DNA from: Nostoc sp. ATCC 43529
GTDB lineage: Bacteria > Cyanobacteriota > Cyanobacteriia > Cyanobacteriales > Nostocaceae
Reading direction: 5' to 3'
Assembly (NCBI GenBank): GCA_003326205.1
Contig: LWTK01000094.1
Span: 1-64,000 of the forward strand
DNA: 64,000 nt
Shown piece by piece: positions 874 through 19,085 of the stretch. Under the pieces are notes generated by a model. The model was not told the origin of the DNA, searched no databases, and was given only the letters and a program-made list of their open reading frames with translations. Position numbers and translations under genes: made by a program. Positions within the stretch are counted from its first letter, which is position 1, and each line of letters begins with the position of its first letter.

Positions 874-2052
874 ATGTCATTGAACGATGAACAGAAAACT
901 GCCAGGACAGTGATGAGATTAACCATCATTTTCCTGATGATTGAATTGTTAGATGAGTTGGTTGATGGGGTGCGAGGCGCGGCTTGGCCTTTGATTCGCA
1001 ATGACTTACACCTATCTTATGTACAGGTCGGCATGTTGTTGACCATTCCCAATACGATCGCCAGCTTGATTGAGCCAATTCTAGGAATTTTGGGCGATGT
1101 TGGTCAACGACGGCAGTTGATTTTGGGCGGAGGAGTTGCTTTTGCGATCGCTCTACTTTTCATTTCCCTCAGCAATGACTTTTCATTGCTATTAGCCGGG
1201 TTTGTGTTATTTTATCCAGCATCCGGCAGCTTTGTCAGTTTGTCCCAAGCAACCCTGATGGACATTGAGCCGACTCGCCACGAGCAAAACTTGGCGCGTT
1301 GGGCATTAGCTGGTTCGTTGGGTAATGTCATTGGGCCTTTAATCTTGGCAGGTATAATTGCCTTACAAAGCAGTTGGCGGAGTGCTTTTTTCGTCCTAGC
1401 GGTATTGACGGTATGGTTGTTAGCACTGCTGTGGCGTTATCCAATTGCAACTCCAACATCTTTTGAAGATGCACCCGCACTCAGCTTCAAGGATGGCATA
1501 CGCAATGCGATCGCTGCATTAAAACGACCTTCTGTATTGCGCTGGCTGACTTTGTTGCAATTTTCAGATTTGATGTTGGATGTGCTGCACGGCTTTATCG
1601 CGCTGTACTTTGTCGATGCGATCGGTACAAACAACACGCAAGCGAGTTTGGCTGTCACAATTTGGCTAGGGTTTGGCTTGCTAGGCGATTTTCTGTTGAT
1701 TCCCCTACTTGAACGGGTGTCGGGATTGAGTTACTTAAAGGTGAGCGCCTTCCTGGTGTTAGGTCTTTACCCTGCTTTTCTTGTAGTACCCCACCTTAAG
1801 GTCAAACTGATTATTTTGGCTTGTTTAGGTTTGCTCAATGCCGGTTGGTACTCAATTCTCCAAGGGCAATTGTACACAGCGATGCCAGGGCAGAGTGGCA
1901 CGGTCATGACACTCAGCAACGTGTTTGGTTTAGTCGGTGGGTTAATTCCGCTGGCAGTAGGAATTTTAGCTCAACAGATTGGTTTACAACCAGCAATGTG
2001 GGTGTTACTAGTAGCACCTATAGCCTTACTGCTTGGACTGTTTAAAGTTTAA
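874..2052 (+). CDS. MFS transporter
   Basis: A 392-residue polytopic membrane protein with about 12 hydrophobic helices, matching the major facilitator superfamily. The segment around residues 65-85 (GILGDVGQRRQLILGGG) has the acidic-glycine/arginine character of the loop 2-3 MFS signature. The substrate cannot be told from sequence. The frame is open back to a TTG at 793, but ATG 874 is preferred because GGAG (861-864) lies 9 bases before it. The stop codon TAA (2050-2052) is the last part of an 11-bp target duplication created by a repeat element, so the protein end was preserved exactly when the element inserted. No neighbour suggests a substrate. Confidence 0.85.
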   Translation: MSLNDEQKTARTVMRLTIIFLMIELLDELVDGVRGAAWPLIRNDLHLSYVQVGMLLTIPNTIASLIEPILGILGDVGQRRQLILGGGVAFAIALLFISLSNDFSLLLAGFVLFYPASGSFVSLSQATLMDIEPTRHEQNLARWALAGSLGNVIGPLILAGIIALQSSWRSAFFVLAVLTVWLLALLWRYPIATPTSFEDAPALSFKDGIRNAIAALKRPSVLRWLTLLQFSDLMLDVLHGFIALYFVDAIGTNNTQASLAVTIWLGFGLLGDFLLIPLLERVSGLSYLKVSAFLVLGLYPAFLVVPHLKVKLIILACLGLLNAGWYSILQGQLYTAMPGQSGTVMTLSNVFGLVGGLIPLAVGILAQQIGLQPAMWVLLVAPIALLLGLFKV

Positions 2053-2396
2053 CGTGAATTCGATGTACAGGATTTTGACCTCACCCCCAGCCCCTCTCCT
2101 AATAGGAGCTACGGTGTACACACAAGTCGAAAAAACCCTATCTATAAAAGATTTGAAGAAAGGTAGGGTGCGTTATGGACGGCAGTCCTAACGCACCGCC
2201 AAAGATTTACGGTGCGTTACGCTGGCGCGATAACACACCCTACAACACCCTTAGAAGAGTTGAAACCCATGCTGGCTATACTTGTGTGTACACCGTAGCC
2301 TAATAGGAGAGGGGAGCAAAAAGCCTAATTTTTCGTTACTCCTCCCTCTCCTTCGAGGAGAGGGAGGCTGGGTGGGTGAGGTCTATCGAATTCAGG
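2053..2396. repeat. 143-bp palindromic element, interrupted copy
   Basis: Its ends are CGTGAATTCGAT (2053) and, inverted, CCTGAATTCGAT (2396). It is flanked by an exact 11-bp direct repeat TTAAAGTTTAA (2042-2052 and 2397-2407), taken as a target duplication. After removing the nested 190-bp element and one copy of its 11-bp duplication, the element is 143 bp, exactly the length of the second copy at 18796-18938, which it matches in inverted orientation nearly throughout. The interior holds two CT/AG-rich hairpins (CCCCTCTCCT/AGGAGAGGGG and CCTCCCTCTCCT/AGGAGAGGGAGG). There is no reading frame. Confidence 0.9.
2109..2298. mobile_element. 190-bp nested MITE with perfect 18-bp inverted repeats
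   Basis: CTACGGTGTACACACAAG (2109-2126) is matched base for base in inverted orientation at 2281-2298. The insertion is bracketed by the direct repeat CCTAATAGGAG (2098-2108 and 2299-2309), an 11-bp target duplication lying in a hairpin of the host 143-bp element. Inside is a second, imperfect inverted pair (GTAGGGTGCGTTA near 2163; TAACACACCCTAC near 2231). It has no coding capacity, so it must have been moved by a transposase encoded elsewhere. Confidence 0.9.
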
Positions 2397-2407
2397 TTAA
2401 AGTTTAA

Positions 2408-18679: not shown

Positions 18680-18795
18680 TAACAATGGAATATTTTCTTA
18701 CTACACACTGGGAACGCCAACAACTCTGGGGACATTGAGGAATCTTGCGATTCGACAGCGTAAGAATCCCCATCTAAGTAGGTAGACATAATTAA

Positions 18796-18938
18796 CGTGA
18801 ATTCGATAGACCTCACCCACCCAGCCTCCCTCTCCTACTAGGAGAGGGAGGAGTAACCAAAAATTAGGCTTTTTGCTCCCCTCTCCTTCAAGGAGAGGGG
18901 CTGGGGGTGAGGCCAAAATCCTATACATCAAATTCACG
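18796..18938. repeat. 143-bp palindromic element, intact copy
   Basis: It starts CGTGAATTCGAT and ends ATCAAATTCACG, giving near-perfect inverted termini. TTAA flanks both sides (7 of 8 bases match if extended). In inverted orientation it matches the interrupted copy at 2053-2396 along its whole length, including the CAAAAAGCCTAATTTTT spacer between two CT-rich hairpins. It lacks the nested 190-bp insertion. The remainder of 18602-19085 is non-coding. Confidence 0.9.
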
Positions 18939-19085
18939 TTAATTAAATGTAAGATTGGAGCTTTGTTCGTAGTAAGCGATTTATCGCTCTTAACAGACGT
19001 TTTAATGGCTCAAGCCTATACTACAAACTTTAGTTTAATTGAGTCCTTCTACTTATAATCTCTGATTTAGATGGGGTGGATTCAA

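Follow-up and report, generated by a model that had tools for sequence, protein, structure and literature searches.

A MITE nested within a MITE in Nostoc sp. ATCC 43529 and its probable placement by IS982-type and Tn5/IS50-like transposases

Structure of the Nested Elements

The window analyzed here, a stretch of 64,000 nucleotides from Nostoc sp. ATCC 43529, carries an MFS-type gene at 793-2052 (PF07690, E 1.8e-28), at the end of which a palindromic element begins. This outer unit spans 2052-2397, with ends ACGTGAATTCGAT and ATCGAATTCAGGT (the latter one change from the ACGT of its family), and is split by an inner element. Its 9-bp target duplication, TAAAGTTTA, has a left copy at 2043-2051, where it overlaps the stop codon of the upstream MFS-type gene, and a right copy at 2398-2406. 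The outer element starts on the last base of that stop codon, which stays intact. A sequence-only reading of the window had recognized the outer unit and its duplicated flanks, with edges at 2053-2396 and 11-bp duplications; the true family end, ACGTGAATTCGA, shows these edges to be off by one, and the 11-bp string is the 9-bp duplication extended by an A and a T from the termini of the element. The same reading held that subtraction of the inner insertion and one duplication leaves the length of an intact copy elsewhere in the window. This is so, but the length is 145 bp (346-190-11) and the copy lies at 18795-18939, rather than 143 bp and a start at 18796. The intact copy, flanked by the duplication TAATTA, displays the uninterrupted form of the inner target.

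The inner unit occupies 2109-2298 (190 bp), as first described, and ends in inverted repeats that match perfectly over 19 bp where 18 bp had been read (20 bp if the symmetric flanking G/C is included). The left repeat, CTACGGTGTACACACAAGT, lies at 2109-2127 on the plus strand and its perfect inverse at 2280-2298 on the minus strand. An 11-bp direct repeat, CCTAATAGGAG, brackets the unit at 2098-2108 and 2299-2309, and is itself flanked by the target arms CTCT (2094-2097) and AGGG (2310-2313), which agree with the patterns CYCY and RGRG described below. With a mover's terminal repeats, a target duplication, no transposase gene and no listed ORF of at least 60 aa, the unit has the composition of a MITE. 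Its interior holds a third-level repeat at 2163-2243, bounded by GTAGGGTGCGTTAT and ATAACACACCCTAC, and similar DNA is found in the interiors of L022, L023, and L026.

With up to three mismatches, the 19-bp inner end occurs twice in the window, vs 0.01 expected in shuffles, and 41 times in the genome, vs 0 for the reversed pattern. With up to two mismatches it is present in 41 of 59 genomes searched, the window's own being one of them and all 34 same-genus relatives carrying it, and the reversed control gave 0 in every genome.

Both structures support, at base level, the proposed nested transposition of MITEs, with the inner insertion following the outer one; the nested pair itself is ordinary. 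An empty orthologous site was not found. The upstream gene was matched (69-70% identical) in 3 of the other 52 genomes of the genus, with no matching downstream DNA within the stretch examined in these three. Uninterrupted outer units elsewhere serve in place of the empty site.

The Mover of the Inner Element

An IS4-like mover had been suggested for the inner unit, and a search for an autonomous IS with its ends identified L111, an intact same-genus IS of 1508 bp with a 490-aa frame, identical to the inner unit in 19 of 19 bases at both ends. Related gene-bearing elements are L090 (1484 bp, from another family of the order and a 64% relative of L111), L113 (1500 bp, with its gene spread over at least two frames), and L091 (2805 bp, enlarged by a second insertion). 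In L091, at 1143-2360, the Tn5-like transposase gene of a same-genus genome is split by an ISAzo13-family transposase gene (NF033519, E 4e-105).

The L090 protein matches the IS4 model NF033590 (E 7e-111) and, over residues 35-436, the Tn5 transposase in the Protein Data Bank (E 1.6e-30). The three catalytic positions of Tn5 transposase, of the DDE type that goes with YREK in the IS4 family, align with the L090 protein. The YREK signature (Y-2-R-3-E-6-K) was present in six of seven loci (L090, L111, L112, L164, L165, and L166); in L113, no frame of at least 200 aa with this signature was found. The Tn5 dimerization domain PF02281 was matched in L164 with an E of 7e-5, too weakly to reach the curated cut-off, and was unmatched in L090.

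In the available part of PMC2266710, the IS4 family is defined by a duplication close to one helix turn (about 10 bp), and its IS50 subgroup by ends of the form CW------Y---CA-A--W-, a size of 1350-1550 bp and a duplication of 8-9 bp. CTACGGTGTACACACAAGT fits the subgroup ends at 7 of 7 conserved positions, L090, L113, and L111 fall within the size range, and the modal duplication of 10-11 bp described below fits the family definition. Transposase homology, YREK, the 19-bp end and size therefore liken the inner mover to IS50/Tn5. However, its duplications are mostly 10-11 bp and not 8-9 bp, and so it is called IS50-like here and not filed as a member of the IS50 subgroup. The inner unit is a MITE and shares its ends, base for base, with an intact same-genus IS bearing an IS4-family, Tn5/IS50-like transposase.

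The nearest named relative is ISSysp3 (IS4 family), from plasmid pAQ7 of Picosynechococcus sp. PCC 7002. Its transposase is 65% identical to that of L090, its ends, CTACTGTGTACACACAAGT, differ by 1 base from those of the inner unit, and its own flanks give a 10-bp duplication, CCCTCTAAAT. Unlike the window unit, a 190-bp gene-less derivative with an unrelated interior, ISSysp3 is a complete IS. Neither ISSysp3 nor GTGTACACACAAGT appears in any paper of the collection searched.

The Tn5-like transposase had no match in the window's draft genome, so the mover was lost, lies in unassembled DNA or entered from outside. Breakage of copies at contig ends is not indicated as the reason, as 0 of 24 end places lie within 2 kb of a contig edge. 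Eight stretches from genomes G028 and G009 do hold copies broken at contig ends. A nearly identical transposase query was matched in 31 of the 59 genomes, the window's own not being one of them; the 31 include matches to paralogs near 30% identity.

Target Duplication Lengths

Duplications flanking the inner-end family were measured in two sets of separate sites, whose genomes may overlap. In the first set (67 pairs of ends, some having an end in common with another listed pair), exact duplications measured 10 bp (n = 15), 11 bp (n = 12), 9 bp (n = 4), 12 bp (n = 1), and 7 bp (n = 1, a paralogous element), so that 10-11 bp accounted for 27 of 33 exact cases; nine further pairs had a duplication with one mismatch, and 25 had none. 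The second set came from a scan of genome contig records for complete short elements in Nostoc, Desmonostoc, Chamaesiphon, Pseudanabaena, Westiellopsis, and others. It yielded 115 stretches, of which 112 were usable (three at contig edges were dropped) and 109 remained after removal of three with first-set flanks. Here the lengths were 11 bp (n = 24), 10 bp (n = 18), and 9 bp (n = 6), with 10-11 bp in 42 of 48 exact cases and no exact duplication in 61. Of the gene-bearing elements, L090 and L091 have exact 10-bp duplications, as do ISSysp3 and an IS of Nostoc sp. C057 (flank repeat GTTTATTAAG). Less favorably, L111, whose ends equal those of the inner unit, has only a 12-bp repeat and L113 an 11-bp repeat, each with one mismatch, and L166 from Kovacikia is without a duplication. 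This Tn5-like family duplicates 9-12 bp, mostly 10-11 bp, which exceeds the published IS50 length of 8-9 bp (PMC2266710, available part) and agrees with the earlier expectation of an IS4-family mover.

Exact duplications were absent from 25 of 67 pairs in the first set and 61 of 109 in the second. Among 43 non-exact pairs checked, 12 differed by one base, vs 3% with zero or one mismatch in swapped flanks. Recombination between copies may explain others, an explanation also given for the lost matching duplications of ISRm22 in the part of PMC1525189 available. Inverted duplications were rejected as the main reason, as exact ones occurred in only 2 of the 43 (L234 and L268), vs 0.6% of swapped pairs. 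In the flanks of L234, L263, L268, and L152, the target copies differ by an inverted hairpin center, L263 and L152 having been judged by eye.

Target Choice

The flanks of the exact duplications reveal a target rule with C at positions -2 and -4 outside the duplication on both sides, or CYCY-(9-11 bp)-RGRG. When the 32 first-set cases with an exact duplication of at least 9 bp were aligned by their outer edges (64 half-sites), C was found at -2 in 63, at -4 in 58 and at both in 57. Pyrimidines filled -1 in 62 half-sites and -3 in 63, and the first duplicated base was C in 53. The rule held, though less strongly, in the second set, where C occupied -2 in 89 of 96 half-sites, -4 in 82 and both in 76. 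Both arms were exactly CYCY and RGRG in 24 of 31 first-set cases; in the second set, both were exact in 28 of 48 cases, one in 16 and neither in 4. Random places carried both arms in 114 of 156,000 trials. The register is kept at every duplication length in the second set: C stood at both -2 and -4 in 10 of 12 half-sites where 9 bp were duplicated, in 30 of 36 where 10 bp were, and in 36 of 48 where 11 bp were. ISSysp3 follows the rule only partially, with its arms ATCT and AGAT fitting at -2, not at -4. Used targets are also more palindromic than controls, with 9.98 of 16 possible pairs in 41 sites, vs 6.80 for random window places and 6.84 for shuffled arms.

From this pattern we infer that the transposase would treat two CYCY half-sites as one symmetric target, with their spacing setting the length of the duplication. 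For a clade of Tn5-like transposases in cyanobacteria, it is tentatively proposed that symmetric half-sites of this kind are read and that the target, not a fixed stagger, sets the 9-11 bp duplication. If true, hairpin repeats would be a standing landing pad, driving repeated MITE-in-MITE nesting in these genomes.

It is somewhat doubtful that the transposase instead recognizes an extruded hairpin or cruciform, not the CYCY/RGRG sequence, although several observations favor this. Insertions lie close to hairpin axes. In a comparison for which the second set was represented by its first 78 usable stretches, 43 used both-arm sites exceeded 287 unused ones with the same arms (spacing 10 or 11) in palindromicity, at 0.55 vs 0.32 for pairs within the duplication and 0.34 vs 0.25 for outer arm pairs (p 0.003); the target center therefore matters too. 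In addition, ISRm22, an IS4-family element, and ISPsy8 are reported to insert at the axes of REP palindromes (PMC1525189, available part), although ISRm22 has a different host, different repeats and 6-bp duplications in the same source. Against hairpin recognition, the register is fixed per base, with C at -2 and -4, and 8 of the 41 used sites reach no more than 7-8 of the 16 pairs, close to the 6.8 averaged by controls.

Tn5 transposase is a main laboratory tool. In the comparison with IS50/Tn5, the sharp arms CYCY/RGRG are a feature of the family described here. A naturally occurring relative whose palindromic target is this sharp and whose stagger is longer, perhaps target-dependent, would make the control of stagger length directly testable.

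The Outer Family and Its Candidate Mover

The outer unit belongs to a family with 40 near-full copies scored in the genome, a lower bound since 40 of 129 candidates were scored. Its ends, with up to one mismatch, occur 101 times in the genome vs 3 for the reversed control. Duplications were surveyed at 30 loci of the 40 scored copies and in the window, giving 38 rows. Exact duplications were of 7 bp (n = 15), 6 bp (n = 3, with the window copy at 18795 counted twice), 8 bp (n = 3), and 9 bp (n = 1, the window composite), and two further rows had a one-mismatch duplication. The 14 rows without a duplication comprise four family members (L062, L067, L069, and L070) and 10 that resemble chance pairs, and no end pair was obtained at 4 of the 30 loci (L065, L074, L078, and L084).

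One gene-bearing element with similar ends was found among 10 stretches examined. L200, an element of 1090 bp in a same-genus genome, has ends ACGTGAGTTCGACGG on both sides, a duplication of 7 bp (GGATTTA), and a frame of 313 aa matching the IS982 model NF033520 (E 3.7e-76). Its end equals the left outer end of the window in 11 of 13 bases and the variant ACGTGAATTCGAC, seen in many outer copies, in 12 of 13. These resemblances suggest that the outer unit likely belongs to an IS982-family mover. A parallel is MITECca01 of Cardinium, an IS982-derived MITE described in the available part of PMC9769881 as small and non-autonomous with IS982-type ends; its host is different, and the likeness to the outer unit is one of description. 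In the window's own genome, the IS982 fragments L210-L213, which lie on contig edges or close to them, have a somewhat different end, ACCTGAGTTCGGG, a second end type of IS982.

The 145-bp palindromes could in principle be repeats spread by replication or recombination, not mobile, with accidental direct repeats. The four paired family copies without a duplication and the four unpaired loci speak for this, but the reading is highly improbable given a duplication at the family's ends in 24 of 38 rows (two with one mismatch, and one copy counted twice), mostly of 7 bp, and the number of near-full copies. The sequence-only reading had supposed, from the identical 11-bp strings flanking both units, that a single transposase family was responsible for the two insertions and duplicated 11 bp each time. 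This is scarcely credible. Only 9 bp of the outer string are duplicated target, the rest being terminal bases of the element; duplications in the outer family are mainly of 7 bp, and its ends are unrelated to the inner ones. The closest element found that has similar ends and a gene encodes an IS982 transposase, not an IS4 one. A common mover was therefore rejected on ends, duplication length and transposase family.

History of the Nested Insertion

The preferred reading, to which we assign a probability of about 0.88, is that two cut-and-paste events by unrelated movers built the locus, an IS982-type element having placed the outer MITE and a Tn5/IS50-like element having later inserted the inner one. 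An IS982-type transposase would first have placed the palindromic MITE of 145 bp where the MFS-type gene has its stop codon. The 190-bp MITE would then have been inserted, with an 11-bp stagger, at the apex of one outer-element hairpin by a Tn5/IS50-like transposase of the ISSysp3-like kind present in cyanobacteria. Both MITEs would have been moved in trans.

The hairpins of the outer unit, CCCTCTCCT-N-AGGAGAGGG, satisfy the CYCY/RGRG rule, sites of this kind being located at hairpin tips, and the nested case in the window is one of several. Among 24 distinct places of inner-end elements in the window's genome, seven (L004/5, L013/25, L014, L017/18, L020, L024, and L026) have outer-unit sequence in the tested flank, while the 40 scored outer copies make up an estimated 0.07% of the genome. 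The 24 places were drawn from 30 loci, and 11 of the 41 end matches, about five further places, are not among them. Hairpin repeats are targeted because such repeats supply CYCY/RGRG sites, and the nesting is consistent with the Tn5-like family strongly preferring hairpin targets. Triplex-forming repeats, as treated in PMC4666352, are a candidate reading of these hairpins. Target choice, not chance, is offered as the reason for MITE nesting. Two repeat families that are abundant but anonymous in Nostoc-like cyanobacteria are tied to movers, that of the inner unit firmly and that of the outer unit tentatively.

Interiors and Arrangement of Inner-End Elements

The interiors of inner-end elements are diverse. 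Among 134 interiors of at most 430 bp, some from elements with an end in common, nine clusters and seven singletons were distinguished, and only 3 of the 134 matched any of five gene-bearing elements, which argues against the MITEs being plain deletion derivatives of the IS. L337, L338, and L340, examined apart from these, retain IS DNA beside their ends. In L008, L009, L013, L021, and L028, all of which have the 19-bp ends of the inner MITE, arrays of a 21-bp tandem repeat, TTGCACCTTTGTTGCATCGCC, make up most of the interior. At 14 of the 24 end places in the window's genome, there is no second end (up to four mismatches) within 1.5 kb, and at L002 (1501-1561) two 19-bp ends lie in the same orientation, 42 bp apart.
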